Source: a virus | DNA length: 35,584 bases | Direction: 5' to 3' (one strand) | Virus record (IMG/VR): IMGVR_UViG_3300035660_000044 | Span: 1-35,584 of that record | Shown: positions 6,685 through 35,584 of the stretch, in pieces | Position numbering within the stretch: the first letter of the stretch is position 1 | Layout of the letters: each line of letters begins with the position of its first letter | Made by a program: the position numbers and the translations under genes | Notes under the pieces: generated by a model | Told to the model about the DNA's origin: nothing | Seen by the model: the letters and a program-made list of their open reading frames with translations, nothing else | The model's database searches: none

Positions 6685-6895
6685 ATTTTATTGCCCTAAA
6701 TGCAACGGGACTCGGTGGAAAACAAGAACCAAAGGAAAAGAATATCAATGTAGAAGTTGTGGTTTTGTTGGACTCGGTTTATCGAAACCGAAAGTTGAGG
6801 AATTGGTTGGAGATGTTGCTGGATTCAAACTTGCTCCAGAAATAAATTGGTGGCAGAAAGTTTGGAATTTTATTAAAAGACTTTTTAAGAAATGA
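6662..6895 (+). CDS. Zinc-ribbon protein with amphipathic C-terminal helix
   Basis: A 77-residue protein. The frame is open from 6629, but the ATG at 6662 with GAGGTGAG about 9 bases upstream is the better start. Two CxxC pairs (CPKC and CRSC) form a zinc ribbon in the first 40 residues. The C-terminus WWQKVWNFIKRLFKK is strongly amphipathic and cationic, as in membrane-surface or nucleic-acid-binding helices. It overlaps the 3' end of the large terminase gene and the start of the next gene, so it is transcribed with packaging genes. Function is unknown. Confidence 0.6.
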   Translation: MSLENENKFYCPKCNGTRWKTRTKGKEYQCRSCGFVGLGLSKPKVEELVGDVAGFKLAPEINWWQKVWNFIKRLFKK

Positions 6896-7083
6896 AATAT
6901 ATTTTAATTTGTAAATTCTGTGGGACTATTCTAATGAAATCTGATGAGCCAGTCTTGGCGACTTTACGAATTGAAATAAAATGTCCGAATATAAATTGCA
7001 AAAAGATTATTCATTTGCCGGAAGAAGGATTGGTTGAGTCGGAAAAAGAAAAAAATACCAGACCAGGACTAATTCACGCTTGA
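6892..7083 (+). CDS. Com-like small zinc-ribbon protein
   Basis: A 63-residue protein with CKFCGTIL near the start and IEIKCPNINCKKIIHL in the middle. This layout resembles the Mu Com family (a short zinc-binding RNA regulator: CxxC then IKCPxC), but the second pair here is spaced CPNINC rather than CPRC. It starts with an ATGA overlap. Com of phage Mu activates translation of a DNA modification gene; any such role here is speculation. The -35 box of the next promoter overlaps its last codons. Confidence 0.5.
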   Translation: MKYILICKFCGTILMKSDEPVLATLRIEIKCPNINCKKIIHLPEEGLVESEKEKNTRPGLIHA

Positions 7084-7109
7084 CAGACCTTCTTGTTCTG
7101 GGATATATT
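7080..7109 (+). promoter_or_regulatory. Promoter of the virion gene block
   Basis: A -35 box TTGACA (7080-7085) is followed after 18 bases by TATATT (7104-7109). It shares the extended GCTTGACA form with three other promoters in this window. The predicted start near 7116 leaves a leader of about 115 bases before the portal gene, containing a hairpin, a direct repeat and a terminator-like stem. Confidence 0.65.
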
Positions 7110-7144
7110 TAGTTAATGGTTTAGTAATAGACCATTTGGTATAA

Positions 7145-7175
7145 GCTTACGAGCCAGAGCCAGTGCTTACGAGCC
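7145..7175 (+). repeat. Direct repeat in the virion-operon leader
   Basis: The 11-mer GCTTACGAGCC occurs at 7145-7155 and again at 7165-7175, exactly 20 bases apart. The second copy runs into the left arm of the downstream hairpin. A two-turn spacing suits a pair of binding sites for a dimeric regulator, or a paired RNA recognition site. Confidence 0.5.
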
Positions 7176-7229
7176 GAACTCTTTCTAAGTCTTTTTAGAT
7201 TTGGAAAGAATTCGGCTTATTTTATTTTA
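7172..7229 (+). terminator. Terminator-like hairpin just before the portal gene
   Basis: The left arm 7172-7185 (AGCCGAACTCTTTC) pairs with the right arm 7204-7217 (GAAAGAATTCGGCT) over 14 positions with one mismatch. A T-rich tract TTATTTTATTTT follows. The hairpin lies between the promoter at 7080 and the portal ATG at 7232, so it would block or attenuate the virion operon unless overridden, as in phage late-gene antitermination. Confidence 0.6.
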
Positions 7230-7231
7230 CA

Positions 7232-8974
7232 ATGGATAACATTTCATTATTAGCAAAATTAAAATCTGAGAAAGATACAGATATAAAATATCAATCAAGA
7301 AGGCACGAAGCTTGGAGAGATATTTATAATCTTTACCGGGACATTGTCGAAACCAATGAATTGACGCAGAGGCAGGAAGTCAACATTCCGATAATGAAGG
7401 AAACAAAGAAAACTTTGCTTTCAAGGATTGATGAACCGCCAGATGTTGTTTTCGATTGTTTGGAGAAAGGGCCGGCTGGAAGAGAAAAAGAAATCGTCAT
7501 CAATGAAAAATGGAGAGACGATTTTGAAACAGACAACTACGAAGGGATTGATATTTTAGAAAAGAACAATGTTTTGTTGTTTGGAAGAACTTTTAAAATG
7601 TTAAATATCGTTAACGGAAGAATTGTAGCATCCATTCCCCACAGGTTAGATATAGTGGTTGACCCGAAAATAGATCCGTTAAACATAGAAACCGCCAAGC
7701 ATATTGAAAGGTTGCACATTTACAAATCTTTGAAAGAAATCTTGGCTAGTTCGAAATATAGCACTGAAGGGAAAAATGAATTGAAGAAATATCTTAACGA
7801 TAAATTACAGGAGCAGGGAGGGTTAATACAATTTCCAAAAGATACTGCCCAGGAGGCAAAAGAAAAGACATTGCAAGATTTAGGAGTAAATAATTTTGAA
7901 AGTTTATTCGCGGCCGATGTCGAGGTTGAATTGAACGAACATTTTACTTTAATTTGGGATGGGAAAAAGTTTGTCAGGCACGTTGTTGTAGTGGCACACG
8001 AAGCAGCCATTCTTTATAACGATACTTTAAAAAAGACAATAGGGGTTGAATTCTGGCCATTTACCACTTGGGCCGATGACATAGACACAGATGATTTCTG
8101 GACTGATGGAATGGGAGACTTAATCAAGACTCCCAACAAAGTAATGAACATTTATTTTTCAGCAATGCTAGAAAATTGGGTTTACCGGAACTTAGGGATG
8201 AGTTGGTATCTGCCCATCGCTGGCTATGATCCCCAAACATTTGAGCCAGAACCATTCGGCCAATACCCAGCACCACTGATACCAGACGGAAGGGGAGGAT
8301 TTCTCTCGGTTGAACAAGTGGTAAAACAGATGGAAATTCCTGCAATTACAGATAATTTAATAAGCATAGATTTTTTAATAAGGTTAGTTGAGAGAGCGAC
8401 GGCAGCCACTGCCATAGAAAAAGGAATTTCGGAAAAGGGAGTGATGACGAAGGGAGAAGTGGAACGATTGATAGAGAAAGCTTCAGAAAGGATAGTGAGC
8501 ATCGCTAAGTTTTACCGCCGGGCCTGGAAAGAATTTGCCTGGAAGTGGAGGAAAATGTTGGAGGCGAATGCTTCGGATAAAAGTCCATTCAAACTTTATA
8601 AGAAAGGAGTCAAAGGAGGATATTTTGAAAAAGAAGTTTATCCGAAAGACTGGGTTTCTACAAAGGGATATAGAGAGAGAGTGACGACAAGAGCTGAACA
8701 GGAAAAAGAAAAGGTTGAAGAACTCAAGGAGTTGGCGTTTCTTAAGGAACAATATCCTGACCTTCCAGTTATCCAGAAAATAGTTAGGAAGAGAATTATA
8801 GAAAGATTGAATTTATCACCAGAAGACATGAGAGAGATAGAAGATATGGAAAAAAAGATGGCGGAGACAACTATTCCGACAGCGCCACCAGGACTTTTAC
8901 CATCAGGTGCTGGCGCTAAACCTATAGGCCAGCCACCGTTGGCACCGAAGCCAGGCAAAATTCCAATAGTTTAA
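7232..8974 (+). CDS. Portal protein
   Basis: A 580-residue protein directly after the terminase region, with the usual size and position of a portal, the dodecameric ring at the packaging vertex. The N-terminal part has an early helix (RRHEAWRDIYNLYRD) and an NIPIMKETKKTLLSRI stretch; HRLDIVVDPKIDP and FWPFTTWADDIDTDDFWTDG resemble portal wing and clip regions. Residues about 440-525 are long helices as in a portal stem and crown, and the last 40 residues are proline/alanine-rich. The call is from pattern and synteny, not a single catalytic motif. No Shine-Dalgarno sequence is present. Confidence 0.82.
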   Translation: MDNISLLAKLKSEKDTDIKYQSRRHEAWRDIYNLYRDIVETNELTQRQEVNIPIMKETKKTLLSRIDEPPDVVFDCLEKGPAGREKEIVINEKWRDDFETDNYEGIDILEKNNVLLFGRTFKMLNIVNGRIVASIPHRLDIVVDPKIDPLNIETAKHIERLHIYKSLKEILASSKYSTEGKNELKKYLNDKLQEQGGLIQFPKDTAQEAKEKTLQDLGVNNFESLFAADVEVELNEHFTLIWDGKKFVRHVVVVAHEAAILYNDTLKKTIGVEFWPFTTWADDIDTDDFWTDGMGDLIKTPNKVMNIYFSAMLENWVYRNLGMSWYLPIAGYDPQTFEPEPFGQYPAPLIPDGRGGFLSVEQVVKQMEIPAITDNLISIDFLIRLVERATAATAIEKGISEKGVMTKGEVERLIEKASERIVSIAKFYRRAWKEFAWKWRKMLEANASDKSPFKLYKKGVKGGYFEKEVYPKDWVSTKGYRERVTTRAEQEKEKVEELKELAFLKEQYPDLPVIQKIVRKRIIERLNLSPEDMREIEDMEKKMAETTIPTAPPGLLPSGAGAKPIGQPPLAPKPGKIPIV

Positions 8975-17402: not shown

Positions 17403-17448
17403 GCCTAAAGATCGAAGTTTAGAAGTCTAATTTCCTTGTGATTAGTCG

Positions 17449-17491
17449 GGCCCGTTCAAACTCATTGTTGTTCGAGAGATTTGAGCGGGCC
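17449..17491 (+). other. Hairpin after the coat gene
   Basis: GGCCCGTTCAAA (17449-17460) pairs with TTTGAGCGGGCC (17480-17491) over 12 bp including one G-U pair, with a 19-base loop. There is no T-tract, so it is more likely a 3' end stabiliser or partial terminator than a full stop. Such an element would keep coat mRNA abundant relative to the following genes. Confidence 0.5.
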
Positions 17492-17523
17492 AGAACAACC
17501 GAATAACACAAGAATAATTAAAT

Positions 17524-23495: not shown

Positions 23496-26400
23496 ATGTT
23501 AGAAAATTTAAAATCTTTATCTGAGGCAGTCAAAACTAAAACTCCAGTGGCCAAGGGAACGGAGATATTTTCGAATTTGAAAGCATTGTCTGTGCCAGAA
23601 GAAAAACCAAAACCAGAACCTCCAAAGTATATGAGTATTGAGGAGGCCCGGACAGCCTTAGCGTCTAATTTAAAACCTTCAATACCGAAACAGAAACCGA
23701 TAGGATTATTTTCGAAGGAAACATTAAAAGAGTTTTGGAATCATCCTATTGAAAATTATGTAGCGGGTATGGATGAAATTGCAACCGGACTGGGAAAAGC
23801 TGCAGTTAAAAGAATGGAACAACTTGGAGCACTTGCCCTACATATCCCACACCTTTTTGGTAGACAAGGAGTAATGACAGATGTTGAAATTGAAGCAGCT
23901 AAAGAAAAGATTTCATCCAAACTTATAGCAACAGGAGGATTACAACAAGTTGGTTATGGGATTGAAAGACTTGGAGAAATGTATTTATTTGATAAGGTGG
24001 TTAGCGAAGCACTTGTTGCGGCTGGTAATAAAGTTCCGGCAATAAAAAAAGCATTAGATTATGTATCATTACAAATGGCCAAACGTCCCTGGAAGATAGG
24101 TTGGCCACTTTCAGTTGCAAAATCTTATGGTTGGGGACGTTTAATTGGAGCCTTAGAAGATAGTAAAAATAAAGAAGAAATGATGAGAAATTCGGAGGCG
24201 TATGGAAACGCATTTGCTAAGTTTCAATTCTTTGCCTATCCCATATTTACATTCTTCAGACCGCTCTTTTATAAATTAGATCAAGCGAGAGAAATTAGAC
24301 TTGGAAAAGATGCTCGCACAACATTAGAAAGTCCTGAAATGAAGGCATTCTCAGAAACAGTTGGAACAAAGAAAATTCTTTGGTTTGCAACAGATGACCC
24401 AAATAAGTTTATCAGAGTAACTAGCGGAGAAATTTGGGAAATTCCAAAATCAACTTTTGAAGAAGCATACAAATCTGCACAAACTGGTCTTTCTTTGGAA
24501 GATATGAAAAAAGCTCTTCCAGTTATTAAGATTAGCGATATTGAATCCTTTCATTTTGAACCCTCACTTTTTGAAAAAATAAAAACTGCATTGGGTTTAA
24601 AATCAGTTCCCCCAGAAGGTATAAAAATAGATATGCCAAAAGGAACAGCAATTACTACAGTTCCACCACCAACAGCAGGAACTCCCGCAGGAGGAACCAT
24701 TCCCGGCGGACCTGTTATTGTTCCTCCTACTGGAGTTCCGCCAACTGGGGAAATTACTCCGTCAGGCGTAACTATTACTCCGGCAGGCCCGGTAGCGCCA
24801 GTAGTTCCACCGGTAATCAAAGAAATTCCTAAACCTGCCCCAGAAATCGCACCAATCACTCAAAAAGCCCCCTTAGAGACAATTCCAGAGGAAAAAGGTA
24901 GAATAATAGGGGAGATCTCAAAAGGAGAAAAAGAATTGGTAGAAAGTTATAAACCGAAAGCTGAAAAAGTCAATGAGGAACTAGGAAAGATTTGGTCAGA
25001 GCTAGAAATAGCAGAAGCCGGAGAGGCAATTCCAATCAGAGATGAATCCGGAGCATTAGTGAGTTGGCTAGGCAAGGAATCATCTTTTCCAGATTGGATT
25101 CCTGCGGATTTAAGGGATAAAAAATTGCTTGAGAAGGTTATGACTGGATTGTCTGATCTTAACAATATTAAATATCCTGCTGGGAACAGGTCAGCCCAGA
25201 GGAATCTTTATAACATAATTTTAGACGAGTTGGATTCTCGGCTTGGTATTGATACCAGCGAGACAAGAACTCGTATTTTAGAAAACTATGAAAAAGCATC
25301 CAAAGGAGAAATTACAAAAGGCATTAGTAGGGGCCTTAAAGGAGGAGAAAGGCCTCCAACAGAAGGAGAAATCATTAAAGAAACAGTAGGGGAGGAAATC
25401 CTAGAAGTTCCTAAAGAAGTTCAACAGAAAGTTGATGCCGATTGGGAAGATAATTATGCTGAAGAATATGGCAACCTAGAAAATGAATTACAAGAATTAA
25501 CAAAAAAAGCAAAAATAAGTCCGGCAGCTGAGAGAACTAATCTGAATAAGAAAATAAATGAAATTGTTTCTCGACAAAGCAAAATAGAAGAAGAATTTCT
25601 CACTAAGTGGAGGAAAATAGTAAAAGAAGGTAAACCAAACGAAGAAGAAATCAAGGAACTTTACAGATCCGGAAAGCAGACTCCTGAGGAATTGACTAAG
25701 ACTTATAATTTAAGTTTGGATAAGATTTTAGATATTGTAGGCAAAGAACCAATGCCTTACACGGTAACAGAGGAAGGTTTGGAAAAAGTCTATCAAGAAA
25801 ACAAAACCAAAGAAGAAAAACTTAGAGGAACACCGGCTTTAGGTTTATCTATTAAAATTACCAATGAAGGATCGTTTAAAAAGCCGGTTACTGTTGAACA
25901 TTTATCTCAGTTAAAAACTCATTTCAATAATTTTAAAAAGAGAATCAACGAGATTATCTCGCCTTTGTATTTTCACAAAAACGCACCTCCTGAATTAAAG
26001 AACGCTATTAGGACTGAGGTGATAGGAGGTTTAAATAAGGTTTATGAGACCAGAAACAAAAATCAGATAATTTTATGGGGAGGAGTGGAGGAAAAAGATA
26101 TTGCTACTTCAATAGAACTCATCAGATTAAGAGACCAGGTGGCTAGAATAAAAGCTGACAAAGGAAATCCAAACATCACTTTAGAGGAAGCCCAGAAAGC
26201 TTTAACCAAAGCAGAAGAATCTGCTTCGCCAGAAGCCAAAGAGGCAGCGGAAAGATATAGGATGTTGGTAAAAAAATACTCGCAAGACTTAATAGAAAGG
26301 GGAAAGCTCGATTCAGATGAATTGCTGGATGATTATATGCGCCACTATGTCGTGGATTACACTCCAGATTGGATTTTCAACAAGGGCATACCAACAAGAT

Positions 26401-29862: not shown

Positions 29863-30162
29863 ATGAACCCATTAGATTACGCAGAATACGGAGTAGCAAT
29901 TTTTGCGGTAGCAATGTTAGGTTTTGTAGTCTATCTTTTTATAAGAAGAGAAGACAGAAGAGATGAAAATCAGGCAAAAAAGGATACTCAATTCCTTTCT
30001 TTTATGGAAAAGCAGGAATTAAGTTTTAAGAACACGATAGACAACCACTTGGATGAACAAAAGAAAGCGATGGAAAGCTTAACGGCTGTTACAGATAAGC
30101 AAAATCAGGTTAGTGAAGAATTGCTTGATTACCTAAAAAAGTGCAACGAGGGGAAGAAATAA
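29863..30162 (+). CDS. Small membrane-anchored coiled-coil protein
   Basis: A 99-residue protein with one membrane segment at about residues 9-27 (YGVAIFAVAMLGFVVYLFI), then a charged RREDRRDENQ stretch and coiled coil to the end. Topology is reminiscent of UviB/BhlA-type holin-like proteins, but no clear family motif is present. It is divergent from the reverse-strand membrane genes, with only 59 bases between the two ATGs. No plus-strand promoter was recognised in that gap. Confidence 0.55.
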   Translation: MNPLDYAEYGVAIFAVAMLGFVVYLFIRREDRRDENQAKKDTQFLSFMEKQELSFKNTIDNHLDEQKKAMESLTAVTDKQNQVSEELLDYLKKCNEGKK

Positions 30163-30181: not shown

Positions 30182-30261
30182 GGCAAAAGGGCGGAGTCTC
30201 TCCTGGCAGTCGTAATGACTAATTTTAACTCCTTTCTCCTTTGGAGACGACCCGCCCTGCC
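30182..30261 (+). other. Long imperfect hairpin element
   Basis: Arms pair in three blocks: GGCA (30182-30185) with TGCC (30258-30261), GGGCGG (30189-30194) with CCGCCC (30252-30257), and GTCTC (30196-30200) with GAGAC (30244-30248). Inside, AGTC/GACT (30208-30211, 30217-30220) forms a small hairpin. It follows the membrane coiled-coil gene and precedes the 42-residue ORF. It may be a 3' end structure or a small RNA; no clear promoter or T-tract was seen. Confidence 0.45.
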
Positions 30262-30270
30262 ATATCTTTT

Positions 30271-30483: not shown

Positions 30484-30512
30484 TTGACAAAATTTCCTGT
30501 TGCTGGTAGGGT
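30484..30512 (+). promoter_or_regulatory. Promoter of the integrase leader RNA
   Basis: TTGACA (30484-30489), 17-base spacer, TAGGGT (30507-30512). The -10 hexamer is weak but is preceded by TGG, giving an extended -10 (TGnTAGGGT). The context is again GCTTGACA. The expected start is near 30519. Confidence 0.55.
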
Positions 30513-30518
30513 ATTGAT

Positions 30519-30656
30519 ACGAAGTCCATTATCCCTTTATGGATTTCAGTGGTGCAGTGGGCTTAAAATATGGTAAAATACAAATGCCATAATGAAAGCT
30601 TAAAAACTTTTATTATGCGCGGCCGCCCGTTTCAGCACCACTGAGCGGGCGGTTTT
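30519..30656 (+). ncRNA. Integrase leader RNA with attenuator architecture
   Basis: From the predicted start to the terminator, about 138 bases. TCAGTGGTGC (30546-30555) is complementary over 10 bases to GCACCACTGA (30635-30644), which lies in the apical part of the terminator hairpin. A middle hairpin combines GCTT/AAGC (30561-30564, 30596-30599) and TATGG/CCATA (30569-30573, 30587-30591). A 17-codon ORF (MDFSGAVGLKYGKIQMP, 30539-30592) covers the left pairing strand. With the integrase ATG 70 bases beyond the terminator, this may be an attenuating leader or a separate small RNA. No known RNA family is recognised. Confidence 0.5.
30623..30656 (+). terminator. Strong terminator upstream of the integrase
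   Basis: CCGCCCG (30623-30629) pairs with CGGGCGG (30646-30652) and the stem continues as TCAG (30632-30635) with CTGA (30641-30644), loop CACCA. TTTT follows at 30653-30656. Readthrough or a second promoter is needed to express the integrase. Confidence 0.75.
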
Positions 30657-30726: not shown

Positions 30727-31653
30727 ATGAAATTTGTAGAAGCTCTTAATAAGTTCAATGAATGGAGGGGACTTAAGGTCGGCAAGGGAACGGTGATGGG
30801 CTACGATATGTCCCTCCGGTATTTCTGCATCTTTGTAAGAAACGCCGAGATAGAGGAAATAAAATTGGGGGACTGTCTGGAATGGTTGAAGTGGATCAAG
30901 GATCTGGGGTTTGACACGACTACTTTGGAGAAGAAAGCCATCGCTCTCAAGAAGTTCTTTGAGTTTTGGTGGGAGCAGGGGAAGCCGGTGATCAATCCTT
31001 CCTTGATTCCCTTGCCACCCAAGCAATTTAAGTTTCCGAGGGTGGCCAGCGAGGAAGATTATAAAAAGGTATTGAGTGTCATTCCGGAAAATTCAGGATA
31101 CTACTGGCACATAAGAAACCGGGCCCTGATTACTTTATTGTGGGACAGCGCGGCCAGAATAGGAGAGGTGCTTTCTTTAAATATGCAGGACATAGGAAAC
31201 CAGAAAGCCGAAATCCATACTGAAAAGACAAAAGGATTTATTCCATTCCGCAGAATTTTTTGGACTGAAGATACCAACAATAATTTGATTAAGTGGATTG
31301 AAAGAAGGAAAAAAGAACTGACGATGTGGAATCTAAAAGAGATCAAAGACCCGGACGCGCTTTTTATCAGCATCCACGGCGGGAAGGGGAGTTGCATGGG
31401 TAGGTCAAACAGAATGGAAAGGGCGGCCGTTACCGAGATGATAAGGAAGTATTCAAACAAGGCCGGACTGGAAAGGCCATTGAATCCTCACTCTATGAGG
31501 CATCACCGCGGCAGGGAACTGGCAATGCAGGGCGCGAACAATTCCGTGATCTCTTCACTTCTTGGTCACGCCAATTTAGCCAGCTCCTATCCTTACACGG
31601 CGCTTGCCGGCAAGGACTTGGAAAGTCAATTTAGGACTTATGTCGGGAAATAG
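30727..31653 (+). CDS. int: Tyrosine recombinase (phage integrase)
   Basis: A 308-residue XerC/D-like recombinase that would catalyse integration or excision at att sites. The N-terminal SAM-like core-binding domain covers about 1-95; the catalytic domain follows with Arg144 (SAARIGEVL), Lys167 or Lys169 (TEKTKG), His255 and Arg258 (PHSMRH), His281 (LLGHANL) and nucleophile Tyr290 (SYPYTAL), nine residues after His281 as usual. AGGAGG at 30705-30710 and AAGGA nearer the ATG provide one of the few recognisable ribosome sites here. All catalytic residues are present, so activity is expected. A role in dimer resolution rather than integration is possible. Confidence 0.9.
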   Translation: MKFVEALNKFNEWRGLKVGKGTVMGYDMSLRYFCIFVRNAEIEEIKLGDCLEWLKWIKDLGFDTTTLEKKAIALKKFFEFWWEQGKPVINPSLIPLPPKQFKFPRVASEEDYKKVLSVIPENSGYYWHIRNRALITLLWDSAARIGEVLSLNMQDIGNQKAEIHTEKTKGFIPFRRIFWTEDTNNNLIKWIERRKKELTMWNLKEIKDPDALFISIHGGKGSCMGRSNRMERAAVTEMIRKYSNKAGLERPLNPHSMRHHRGRELAMQGANNSVISSLLGHANLASSYPYTALAGKDLESQFRTYVGK

Positions 31654-31764
31654 TCATTTTTGGCGATTTAGTCAAAAAACAGCGCACCACGATTGCGCAG
31701 GAAGGGCGTTTGATGGTCGAGAGGTATTAGATGTCGTCTGTGGATAATTTGGGTATAACTATGC

Positions 31765-31793
31765 TTGACACACTTGTTGGGTTGGATTATTAT
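31765..31793 (+). promoter_or_regulatory. Promoter of a leaderless small gene
   Basis: TTGACA (31765-31770), 17-base spacer, TATTAT (31788-31793). The expected start at about 31800 is only 3-5 bases before the ATG at 31804. The -35 box is in the GCTTGACA context. Confidence 0.7.
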
Positions 31794-31803
31794 TAAGGTA
31801 GAT

Positions 31804-31950
31804 ATGGAAAACAAAGAAACGAAAAAACCTAATAGAATGCGAAAAATCAGCGATGCGCTTTATAGAAAACTTTACAGAAGAAATTCGCAAATCCTAAGAG
31901 TTAAGGCAATGATAAGAGAAGCTTGGCGGACTTTGAAACAGATTGACTGA
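31804..31950 (+). CDS. 48-residue basic protein from a leaderless transcript
   Basis: ATG at 31804, chosen because an upstream in-frame TTG lies inside the promoter. The product starts MENKETKKPNRMRKI and is arginine/lysine-rich with one predicted helix pair (SDALYRKLYRRNSQILRV, MIREAWRTLKQ). It may bind DNA or RNA and could be an early regulator. Its 3' end overlaps the -35 box of the next promoter (TTGACT). No family is recognised. Confidence 0.55.
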   Translation: MENKETKKPNRMRKISDALYRKLYRRNSQILRVKAMIREAWRTLKQID

Positions 31951-31971
31951 AGGTCTTTGAAAATTTATAAT
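31943..31971 (+). promoter_or_regulatory. Near-consensus promoter of the second RNA unit
   Basis: TTGACT (31943-31948), exactly 17 bases, TATAAT (31966-31971). The expected start is near 31978-31979. This is the best match to a σ70 consensus in the window, and its immediate product up to a strong terminator has no sizeable gene. Confidence 0.75.
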
Positions 31972-31978
31972 TAAATTA

Positions 31979-32116
31979 GATTATTAGCGGAAGTATAATT
32001 ATGGTAATCCCATTCATTGAAGGCACAGCCAGGAATATGGGAATAGCTGTTGAGGATTAGACCTCAATAAACTAAATACCGCAATTATACTCCGCTAAGG
32101 CGGAGTTTTTTGTTTT
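31979..32116 (+). ncRNA. Compact structured RNA, about 135 bases, three-way junction plus terminator
   Basis: Stem P1 pairs 31986-32006 with 32077-32096: AGCGGA with TCCGCT, GTATAATT with AATTATAC, and GGTA with TACC, with one bulged A and one mismatch. P2 is TCCCAT (32008-32013) with ATGGGA (32037-32042). P3 is TTGAGG (32050-32055) with CCTCAA (32062-32067). The right side of P1 overlaps the left arm of the terminator (32089-32095), so P1 and terminator compete, as in riboswitches and attenuators. A 19-codon ORF (MVIPFIEGTARNMGIAVED, 32001-32060) is embedded. No known riboswitch class is recognised; a discrete regulatory RNA or attenuator of 32161 onward is inferred. Confidence 0.6.
32089..32116 (+). 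terminator. Strong intrinsic terminator of the second RNA unit
   Basis: ACTCCGC (32089-32095), loop TAAG, GCGGAGT (32100-32106), then TTTTTTGTTTT. This is the most canonical terminator in the window. Confidence 0.85.
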
Positions 32117-32160
32117 AACAAATGGTCGAAGCTTCGCTGAACATTAAAAATTGAAAAGCT

Positions 32161-32352
32161 ATGACTAAAGAAGAAGAAAAAAGAGTGATCGACATCTATG
32201 GGTCTGACTATGAAGAAAAGGATATCCCAACTTACATCAGGAATCGGGACTTCAAAAACGAAATGGATCAGATAGAGGCAGAAGAAAGAACAGTCGAAGA
32301 ATTAGAGGATGAAAGATTTGACTATCATCCTCGACCCGAAGAAGTAAATTAA
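32161..32352 (+). CDS. 63-residue acidic protein
   Basis: A very acidic, helical protein beginning MTKEEEKRVIDIYGSDY and ending FDYHPRPEEVN. It is the first gene beyond the attenuator-like RNA and would be in the same transcript if readthrough occurs. No domain is recognised; small acidic phage proteins often bind host DNA-binding or nuclease proteins, but nothing here shows that. Confidence 0.5.
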   Translation: MTKEEEKRVIDIYGSDYEEKDIPTYIRNRDFKNEMDQIEAEERTVEELEDERFDYHPRPEEVN

Positions 32353-32378
32353 GGTCGAAAAATAAATAACTGGGTTGC

Positions 32379-32438
32379 ATTCGGGGGAAGAGAGTTAACA
32401 AGAGTGAGCGGCAACGCAGAACTCTTCTCTCCCCGAAT
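32379..32438 (+). other. Hairpin upstream of the annealing-protein gene
   Basis: ATTCGGGG (32379-32386) pairs with CCCCGAAT (32431-32438), and GAAGAG with CTCTTC extends the stem with a 3-base bulge. It ends 12 bases before the next ATG, so it could affect translation. No T-tract follows. Confidence 0.5.
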
Positions 32439-32450
32439 AACCAAAATAAA

Positions 32451-33140
32451 ATGCAAAACAAAAAAACAAAAGCAATAGTCAGGGTCAATCAGACCTACGC
32501 TATTGATAAGCCGGCCCAAATGATCCAGGCGGCAAAGATCATAAAGGATCATATCGTAAAGAACAATCTCTCCGTGAACATAGTGGGAAAGAACTATGTC
32601 TTAGTTGAGGGATGGCAGTTTGCTGGGAGTTTAATGAATCTGTTCCCGAAAGTGGTAAAGGTAGAAAATCTCGGGGACAACAAATGGATGGCTCAAGTGG
32701 ATCTCATAAACAGAAAGACGGGAGAATCAGTTAGCACTGGATTTGCGGTTTGCTCAAAAGCAGAACAGAAAAAAGCATCATTCGATGAATACGCCATACT
32801 ATCAATGGCCCAGACAAGAGCCATAGGAAAAGCATTCAGGAACACGATAGGTTGGATCATAAAACTATCGGGTTTCGAAGCGACTCCGGCCGAAGAGATG
32901 AAAGGGAAGCCAGGAGAAGCACCGGTAGCATCAAAGCCGGGGCAAAGTCTGCCGGCTTCTGAAATTGACAAGAAAAGGATCGTGGATCTGACAAAGGAGT
33001 TAGGAGCAAAGACCGCGCAGGCAACGGCCAAGATGGTCGAGAACATGGCCAAAAGGAAAGTGGACTGGACGAAGATGACCAAGAACGAGGCGGCGACGAT
33101 CTATGCCACGCTTCTGCAGAAGAAAATAAACAAGAAATAA
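32451..33140 (+). CDS. Putative single-strand annealing or recombination protein
   Basis: A 229-residue protein. Residues about 20-145 contain VLVEGWQFAGSLMNLFPKVV, a WMAQVDLINRKTGE segment and the signature SMAQTRAIGKAFRNTIGW followed by SGFEATPAEEM. This pattern recurs in phage recombination modules; it resembles the core of Erf/Rad52-like annealing proteins but I cannot assign a subfamily. A linker (about 150-170, proline/glycine-rich) leads to a C-terminal helical domain. It lies 1 base before a RecB-like exonuclease gene, the usual annealase-exonuclease pairing. Function is inferred mainly from context. Confidence 0.55.
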   Translation: MQNKKTKAIVRVNQTYAIDKPAQMIQAAKIIKDHIVKNNLSVNIVGKNYVLVEGWQFAGSLMNLFPKVVKVENLGDNKWMAQVDLINRKTGESVSTGFAVCSKAEQKKASFDEYAILSMAQTRAIGKAFRNTIGWIIKLSGFEATPAEEMKGKPGEAPVASKPGQSLPASEIDKKRIVDLTKELGAKTAQATAKMVENMAKRKVDWTKMTKNEAATIYATLLQKKINKK

Positions 33141-33141
33141 T

Positions 33142-33924
33142 ATGGAAGAAACTAAAATTATAAGTCTCTACAAAGGAACGATCAAGATAAAGTTCGTGAC
33201 CGATCACGCCGATAAGCATAAATATTATGATGAGAAAGGAAATTATTCGCCAGGAGTGACATACTTTACTGGAGTGATTGACAAATCAAGAGCATTTGTT
33301 CCAGCCGCTCTTAAAAAGATGGCGATGAGTTTAGGGGATCATATCGGTGAAGTTTTAACTCAAGAAATGATTGATGTTGGTAAAAATGAATGGGGAAAAC
33401 AAAGCAAGGAAGCGAAAGATGTCGGCACGGAGATCCACGCCTGGATAAGCGAGTGGATCAAAACAAGAAAAGTTCCCATTCCTGAGAGGTTGGAGGTCAA
33501 GAACGGGATCAACGCATTCATGCAGTTCCAAGACGCACACAAGGTGAAGTGGTTGGAGAGTGAAAGATTGGTATACAGCAAGAAGCATAAATATCCTGGA
33601 ACCGCAGACGCAATAGGAAAGATAGGAAAAGATTTAATACTCTTTGATTTTAAAAGCACAAAACCATCAAGTGTGTCGCCAGACGGAATTTACCCTGAGC
33701 ATTCGATCCAGGCGGCAGGATACCAGATTGCCTGGGAAGAAGAAACCGGGAAGAAAATGGCCTACAGAATCGTGATTGCTTTGCACAAAGAAACAGGTGA
33801 TGTCAAATTCCGAGAATTCAGGAACAACGAAAAAGATAAAAAAACTTTCCTTCATTGTGTCGGATTAAGGAGAGGGTTAGATGAACTAAAACCAAATGGT
33901 GGAAGTTATAATTCCAAATTGTGA
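33142..33924 (+). CDS. PD-(D/E)XK exonuclease (RecB/Cas4-like)
   Basis: A 260-residue nuclease. Motifs in order: GTEIHAWI (Gly95, His99), ESERLVYS (Glu139), PGTADAIG (Asp156), LILFDFKST (Asp169, Lys171) and SIQAAGYQIAW (Gln190, Tyr194). This is the standard layout of phage recombination exonucleases that resect double-stranded ends to expose single strands for annealing. It would work with the preceding protein. All catalytic residues are present. Confidence 0.85.
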   Translation: MEETKIISLYKGTIKIKFVTDHADKHKYYDEKGNYSPGVTYFTGVIDKSRAFVPAALKKMAMSLGDHIGEVLTQEMIDVGKNEWGKQSKEAKDVGTEIHAWISEWIKTRKVPIPERLEVKNGINAFMQFQDAHKVKWLESERLVYSKKHKYPGTADAIGKIGKDLILFDFKSTKPSSVSPDGIYPEHSIQAAGYQIAWEEETGKKMAYRIVIALHKETGDVKFREFRNNEKDKKTFLHCVGLRRGLDELKPNGGSYNSKL

Positions 33925-34300
33925 TCATTGCGGAACGACTCTTATGGAAGTAACGACAAAAAACGGAAGAAAGATTTATGGTTGTCCGAATTGGAGAGTT
34001 GATGGGAAAGGTTGCCCCGGGACGATCTATGACCCGAACCACGAAGAATCAAGGAAGAAAATCTACCCGAGGGTGGTAATAAGACACAACGTGGCAAGCA
34101 GATCAGAGCCAGGGAAGTTCAGGACTGTGGAAGTCTATGAGGATGGTCATATGAGATGTAATTGTATAGCTGGCGATATGCAAAGATTCTGTCACCACCA
34201 GAAAAAGACTGGAAAATGGCTTAAAGATTTAGTCCGATTGATCCAAGAAGTGAACAAAGTAGACTTCGACAAAATTGAGATAGAGAAAGAATCAAATTAG
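33896..34300 (+). CDS. Double zinc-finger protein: topoisomerase-type finger plus SWIM-like finger
   Basis: A 134-residue protein overlapping the exonuclease gene by 29 bases. The N-terminal finger (CDHCGTTLMEVTTKNGRKIY with Cys9, Cys12, Cys30 and Cys40) resembles C4 zinc ribbons at the ends of topoisomerase I. The C-terminal part has a SWIM-like CxC...CxH pattern (Cys88, Cys90, Cys99, His101). Both finger types bind nucleic acids and SWIM proteins often assist recombinases. It probably accompanies the annealase and exonuclease. The fusion of these two finger types in such a small protein is notable. Confidence 0.65.
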   Translation: MVEVIIPNCDHCGTTLMEVTTKNGRKIYGCPNWRVDGKGCPGTIYDPNHEESRKKIYPRVVIRHNVASRSEPGKFRTVEVYEDGHMRCNCIAGDMQRFCHHQKKTGKWLKDLVRLIQEVNKVDFDKIEIEKESN

Positions 34301-34308
34301 TTTTTTAC

Positions 34309-34336
34309 CTCACACTTTACTTGTGGAGAGTGTGAG
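34309..34336 (+). other. Hairpin between recombination and HNH genes
   Basis: CTCACACT (34309-34316) pairs perfectly with AGTGTGAG (34329-34336) across a 12-base loop. The TTTTTT run lies upstream, not downstream, so it is not a forward intrinsic terminator. It may be a processing or stability site. Confidence 0.45.
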
Positions 34337-34369
34337 ATTAAGAAACTAAACTTTAGGTTGTCAGAAAAA

Positions 34370-34783
34370 ATGGAGGAAAAACAAAAAATCCTAAATAAGA
34401 AATTTAAAGAACAAAAAGGCAAATGTTTTTGGTGTAATGCAAAATTGTCTTTAGAGATTGCATCAATTATAGATTATTACTCTATCGGTCAAATCATACC
34501 AAAAAAATGCATAGCTAAAGACGAACAAGGAAATGTTGTTAAAGGGGTATTTGATTTTCATGATTTAGATCACGTCTTACCAAAAAGTTTGGGCGGGACT
34601 GATAATCCCGATAATCTTGTCCTCTCTTGTAGAAGATGCAATCAAAGAAAATTAGGAAACCTCTGGCTTAAAGATAAGCATGGCTCGATTGTAGAGTTTA
34701 ATAGGCCAAAAAAGAAAACAAAAATTGAATACAAAAATAACAAAATAATTATCACAACTGTTATAAAACTCTACAAACAATGA
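34370..34783 (+). CDS. HNH endonuclease
   Basis: A 137-residue HNH nuclease. CFWC (Cys19, Cys22) and CRRC (Cys87, Cys90) bracket the core, [20 protein letters not shown] with Asp67-His68 and Asn82, then Asn91 after the second Cys pair. The frame is open from a TTG at 34358; the ATG at 34370 is preferred. The pattern fits phage HNH nucleases, which may be selfish or assist DNA processing. It overlaps the next gene by ATGA. Confidence 0.8.
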
Positions 34784-35548: not shown

Positions 35549-35584
35549 ATGGTCAGTCCAATTTTCATCACTTCGCCAAAAAAC
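35549..35584 (+). CDS. 5' end of a gene cut by the window edge
   Basis: ATG at 35549 opens a frame still open at the last base (MVSPIFITSPKN). The leader AAATAAATATG is of the A/T-rich type used by most genes here. Nothing can be said of function. Confidence 0.45.
   Translation, partial: MVSPIFITSPKN

Follow-up and report, generated by a model that had tools for sequence, protein, structure and literature searches.

A candidate transcription attenuator predicted ahead of the early genes of a phage, with a leader of like design before the integrase

Genes around the early leader

The window analysed here is the whole of a phage record from IMG/VR, 35,584 bases in length, in which an integrase gene is followed by a small basic ORF, a structured leader (the early leader) and a series of early genes. 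The nearest relatives, G001 and G002, carry integrases that are 93% and 88% identical to that of the window, and the ends of both records fall on gene boundaries adjoining the early leader. Window positions 35550-35584 are the first bases of the G001 record, and thus G001 continues where the window stops. The genes and the upstream promoter-like site are the following:

30727-31653, integrase
31765-31793, + strand, promoter-like TTGACA-17-TATTAT for the 48-aa ORF, 11 of 12 consensus positions
31804-31950, + strand, 48-aa ORF, very basic (pI 11, charge +9.5)
32161-32352, + strand, 63-aa acidic ORF, the first gene past the terminator, without a family match
32451-33140, + strand, conserved protein, PHROG 19042
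33142-33924, + strand, exonuclease, PHROG 298

A transcript from the site at 31765-31793 would also enter the early leader, whose own promoter overlaps the last codons of the 48-aa ORF with its -35 box. A similar arrangement is found in G002, where a TTGACA-TATAAT site lies ahead of the corresponding small ORF, which encodes 44 aa, is also basic (pI 10.2) and has a TTGACA near its end. The 48-aa protein is a candidate regulator, by its place and charge only. Around and just past the integrase stop codon, the stretch 31641-31681 is 93% identical over 41 bases to G002 (L083, from about position 6921), and possibly represents an attachment site.

On the other side of the leader, the 63-aa ORF shares 48% identity with an ORF of G002, and the protein encoded at 32451 shares 43-61% identity with proteins of aligned phage contigs. 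Only the position of the latter ahead of the exonuclease suggests a role in recombination; its identification as RecT was considered and dropped, with no support from Pfam, NCBIfam or PDB profiles. By family match, recombination functions begin with the exonuclease at 33142, and a DnaD-like helicase-loader match follows at 34780. The initial annotation had placed recombination genes from 32161 onwards, which holds for the exonuclease and does not hold for 32161 itself, where the 63-aa ORF matches no family. A consensus scan of the + strand from 32000 to 34576 turned up no promoter-like site, and the 63-aa ORF, the 32451 gene and the exonuclease are therefore probably reached by readthrough of the terminator. 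A strong hairpin at 32379-32438 stands immediately ahead of the 32451 gene, and similarly placed hairpins directly precede the homologous gene in L002-L004, L005 and L007; translation control is a possible function for it.

Promoter and fold of the early leader

The early leader begins behind a promoter at 31943-31971 (+ strand), TTGACT-17-TATAAT, which matches the consensus at 11 of 12 positions in the scan. The window has four sites of such quality, against 0-4 (mostly 0-2) in shuffled versions, all shuffles in this work preserving dinucleotides, so the promoter by itself is weak evidence. In the approximately 135 nt downstream, an interrupted 21-bp stem, P1, encloses two arms and is followed by an intrinsic terminator. 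The elements, with P1 divided into three segments of 8, 8 and 5 bp, are:

31984-31991 with 32091-32098, + strand, lowest P1 pairing, from the fold
31993-32000 with 32083-32090, + strand, middle P1 pairing, from the fold
32002-32006 with 32077-32081, + strand, upper P1 pairing, from the fold
31984-31991, + strand, P1 5' strand, lowest segment TTAGCGGA, the antiterminator strand
31993-32006, + strand, P1 5' strand, middle and upper segments, GTATAATT and TGGTA
32008-32042, + strand, arm P2, from the fold
32044-32074, + strand, arm P3, from the fold
32077-32090, + strand, P1 3' strand, upper and middle segments, TACCG and AATTATAC
32091-32098, + strand, shared strand TCCGCTAA, either the 3' end of P1 or most of the terminator left arm plus loop
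32089-32106, + strand, intrinsic terminator hairpin ACTCCGC-TAAG-GCGGAGT, then TTTTTG, with the T-rich tail reaching 32112

Folding energies refer to 37 C under a standard model. The RNA 31979-32120 has a minimum free energy of -44.4 kcal/mol, compared with -26.6 +/- 3.4 kcal/mol for shuffled sequences (z -5.2; 0 of 200 shuffles match it), and by z only two of the 1182 tiles covering both strands of the window are more extreme than the 130-nt tile at 31981. The promoter, leader length and canonical terminator noted in the initial annotation are confirmed, and the long stem that it described as closing two hairpins is found again, here as 21 bp in three segments. A minus-strand reading of the leader was rejected: the fold is nearly symmetric, but on that strand there is no T-run and the promoter-like match is weak.

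Competition between P1 and the terminator

The lowest 5' segment of P1 (31984-31991) pairs with the left arm and loop of the terminator, and within it the bases 31987-31991, GCGGA, are a copy of the start of the terminator right arm, so that P1 and the terminator are mutually exclusive in the prediction. This exclusivity, already claimed in the initial annotation from the overlap of the right strand of P1 with the terminator left arm, was borne out for the lowest 8 bp of P1 and is limited to them, the remainder of P1 being compatible with a 5-bp core of the terminator. The competition was measured as ddG, the best fold with the terminator right arm unpaired minus the best fold with the terminator formed, and was compared with leaders in which the terminator was held fixed and the upstream sequence shuffled. 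In the real leader P1 is favoured by 5.4 kcal/mol (ddG -5.4), whereas in the shuffled leaders the terminator is favoured by 8.7 +/- 2.3 kcal/mol; none of 1000 shuffles reaches the real value, nor did any of 500 in a repeat of the test. Among 75 strong terminators of the window and related loci, that of the early leader lies furthest out (z -7.6), and for no other does the upstream fold win. The next loci in this ranking, L021, L081 and L065, were set aside, as they resemble the ends of protein genes and not leaders.

The competition between P1 and the terminator in the early leader is far beyond chance. Folds of successively longer prefixes have P1 finished before the right arm of the terminator is made and still favoured through the T-run; because P1 is both complete earlier and favoured by energy, the default outcome in the prediction is readthrough.

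Comparable units before the integrase and the head genes

A second leader of the same design lies ahead of the integrase, at 30484-30652, and is kept in G001:

30484-30512, + strand, promoter-like TTGACA-17-TAGGGT (TTGACA-17-TAGTAT in G001)
30546-30555, + strand, P1 5' strand TCAGTGGTGC, which pairs with GCACCACTGA at 30635-30644 in the terminator loop
30623-30652, + strand, terminator-like hairpin CCGCCCG...CGGGCGG, whose loop holds the P1 3' strand (CCGCCTC...GAGGCGG in G001)

The long stem extends here from the loop of the hairpin into its left arm. Promoter spacing, P1a and the terminator are all retained in G001. None of the 10 P1a pairs has changed there, although the region otherwise shares about 74% identity (119 of 160 columns). 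The terminator stem differs on both sides (CCCG/CGGG to CCTC/GAGG) when the sequences are read by hand, while the program alignment puts these changes on gaps and scores them as broken. Competition as strong as that of the integrase leader was reached by 1 of 1000 shuffles for the window and 0 of 500 for G001. On this measure the balance nevertheless tips to the terminator, by 6.0 kcal/mol in the window and by 3.0 in G001, the sign of the latter difference varying with the length of flank folded, and the consensus fold of the window/G001 alignment chooses the long stem. A further structured stretch, 30182-30262, lies past the ORF 29863-30162, and G001 has a like fold in which GGGCGG/CCGCCC has become GGGCAG/CTGCCC, a change on both sides.

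A third unit of promoter, leader and terminator, 7080-7219, lies ahead of the head genes:

7080-7109, + strand, promoter TTGACA-18-TATATT
7170-7219, + strand, long hairpin then T-rich tail, adjoining the start of ORF 7232-8974

Within the -35 box of this promoter ORF 6892-7083 has its stop codon, and the ORF 7232-8974 encodes 580 aa, a portal protein by position only. Compared with G003, the hairpin has six pairs changed on both sides (compensatory), four changed on one side and none broken. Promoter-terminator units were also found at G001 7890, G002 10649 and position 326 of the G003 locus L119; that of G001 precedes a large ORF whose product is an HK97-type portal by eye, not by family search, and that of G002 precedes a gene cluster. 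The late promoters of the window, G003 and G001 have spacer letters in common, by eye. For both the integrase and the head-gene units, the parallel has one relative behind it.

Some additional features were observed in the window. The motif AAAGGTCG occurs at 1303, 10874, 15087, 30672 and 32351, and also in G001, G002, L002 and L005; it is strand-specific and enriched, with five copies on the + strand and none on the - strand of the window (0.8 expected), and +/- counts of 6/0 in G001, 11/0 in G002 and 5/0 in L002. This motif, or AAGGTCG, often starts at or just past a stop codon, and the next ATG is mostly about 29-47 nt further on. A long nested stem occupies 17416-17520, in the intergenic stretch ahead of an HNH endonuclease gene (17524), and has the second-lowest fold z in the window; the lowest belongs to 24661-24790, within a 1658-aa ORF, where the fold possibly arises from repeats in the coding sequence.

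Relatives of the early leader

Homologues of the early leader were sought at several levels. Searches by blastn and nhmmer found none in 80 related loci, exact and gapped patterns found none in IMG/VR (three gapped-pattern hits were discarded as terminators amid unrelated surroundings), and phage and plasmid records gave just short or weak matches. A covariance model run against 50 sources found only the leader itself and its own minus strand. The early leader is thus a singleton among the sequences compared, in part because the related records stop at the gene ends beside it. A parallel in gene order is L007, with a promoter, a folded leader, a terminator, a small ORF and then a related early gene, whose conserved protein is 61% identical to the 32451 protein; competition of the P1 type is absent from the L007 leader (z -0.96). 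No motif common to all leaders was found beyond chance.

Mechanism and alternatives

We lean, with slightly better than even confidence, towards reading the early leader as a cis-acting transcription attenuator of the early (recombination/replication) operon, with readthrough as the default. The basis is computed, and consists of the promoter match, the fold, the mutual exclusion and the lack of a promoter-like site past the terminator. The integrase leader, of like design and conserved in a relative, supports this reading by analogy, and so does the gene order of L007, with its related early gene; on the other side, P1 may be so strong that the terminator would hardly ever act. According to the proposed mechanism, polymerase would start at about 31978, or arrive from 31765, and P1 would form first, both of its strands emerging ahead of the terminator right arm. 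By sequestering the left arm and loop of the terminator, P1 would allow readthrough into the genes from 32161 by default. A signal, such as a protein or ribosome on the leader or a second RNA pairing with it, would block the pairing of 31984-31991 and so free the left arm, upon which the hairpin 32089-32106 could form and transcription would end after about 135 nt. The first candidate for this signal, by place and charge (pI 11), is the basic 48-aa protein encoded upstream, and a ribosome on a 19-codon ORF within the leader would also be expected to free the terminator. The direction of the default is an inference, as are the signal, its nature and a part for the leader in a lysis/lysogeny or early shut-off decision.

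Terminator/antiterminator leaders likewise have two exclusive folds with one common strand, and in the early leader such exclusive structures are predicted, one of them an intrinsic terminator. In the consensus scan, the leader lies between promoter and genes with no later promoter, so that the promoters recognised upstream are all separated from the early genes by the terminator. Unlike attenuators in general, it precedes a phage early operon and belongs to no known RNA family. The latter agrees with the initial annotation, in which no known class had matched by eye; Rfam gave no match either. Of the riboswitch-like or attenuator reading proposed there, the attenuator layout is supported by the competition, the missing later promoter and the integrase parallel, while a metabolite riboswitch, a T-box and a peptide leader find no support. 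A ligand-binding riboswitch or peptide-leader attenuator would share the terminator/antiterminator layout, and a 19-codon ORF, 32001-32060, does begin inside P1. Nevertheless, this ORF is no longer than chance (its length is reached in 18% of shuffles) and has no run of regulatory codons, for which the leader-peptide attenuator was rejected; the genes behind the leader are not metabolic, and Rfam matches were absent at gathering scores and no better than chance once thresholds were relaxed, which leaves this class very unlikely. In phage P4, CI RNA immunity operates in an early-operon leader, where repeated and complementary segments govern premature termination and a processed RNA acts in trans; the early leader would resemble it in being an early-operon leader with repeated and complementary segments, and would differ in its use of an intrinsic terminator.

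Two explanations that assign P1 a different role, or none, are each unlikely to a lesser degree. It would be rather unlikely that a plain terminator is overridden by a phage antitermination factor with P1 not being the switch, as AlpA and lambda Q do when acting from a promoter DNA site independently of the terminator sequence (PMC7969949). The AlpA precedent, with its intrinsic terminator right after the promoter and ahead of the first gene, fits a layout seen here in several operons, since promoter-terminator units recur even before unrelated head genes (window 7080 and relatives) and the late promoters share spacer letters by eye; yet the RNA of the early leader itself bears a competing stem, the overlap between P1 and the terminator in the early and integrase leaders would go unexplained, and the scan of window proteins recognised none as Q- or N-like. 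A discrete small RNA of about 135 nt as the main product, readthrough giving a second form, seems unlikely. This is the situation of IsrK in the Gifsy-1 prophage, where a terminated sRNA that acts in trans and a readthrough mRNA come from one promoter (PMC4825925), and the early leader, having its own promoter and terminator and a strong fold, has an order of parts much like that of isrK: a possible regulator gene, a promoter, a short RNA with a terminator, a small ORF and a further phage gene, with a downstream mRNA that would require readthrough. However, P1 opposes the very terminator that would set the end of the small RNA, and there is neither above-chance pairing with the downstream mRNA, the other leaders or the 48-aa ORF mRNA nor an antisense match of at least 13 nt elsewhere in the window. 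The IsrK switch is moreover translational and pairs with orf45, whereas no such pairing was found for the early leader (its duplex energy is no better than that of shuffles), and the gene upstream of it is not recognised as Q-like. Very unlikely, and least probable of all, is an RNA that itself modifies RNA polymerase to pass terminators. HK022 putRNA (putL) is, like the early leader, a structured two-arm RNA directly after an early phage promoter and ahead of early genes, but it measures about 70 nt, consists of two stem-loops with no long closing stem that overlaps a terminator, and acts on polymerase at distant terminators (PMC9378689); size and architecture thus differ, and phage records, searched indirectly, yielded no relevant match.

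Implications for phage regulation

On the attenuator reading, the early leader is probably an on/off gate for the recombination genes. What is new here is the parallel offered by the integrase leader, together with the promoter-terminator unit of the head genes. To our knowledge, few phages outside the lambdoid group are known to time their operons by termination. The leader hypothesis can be tested on short templates in purified transcription, without phage or host. Should both the early leader and that of the integrase be conditional terminators of one design, the choice between lytic growth and integration could fall at the level of the nascent RNA. Tentatively, and as a proposal that we hold to be doubtful, conditional terminators close to the promoters might gate the early, integrase and late operons of this phage lineage. 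The leaders of the first two would have their own antiterminator stems, read by one phage-encoded signal, perhaps the upstream basic protein. If true, this would be an RNA-level regulatory scheme for a temperate phage unlike those of lambda N/Q, put and P4.
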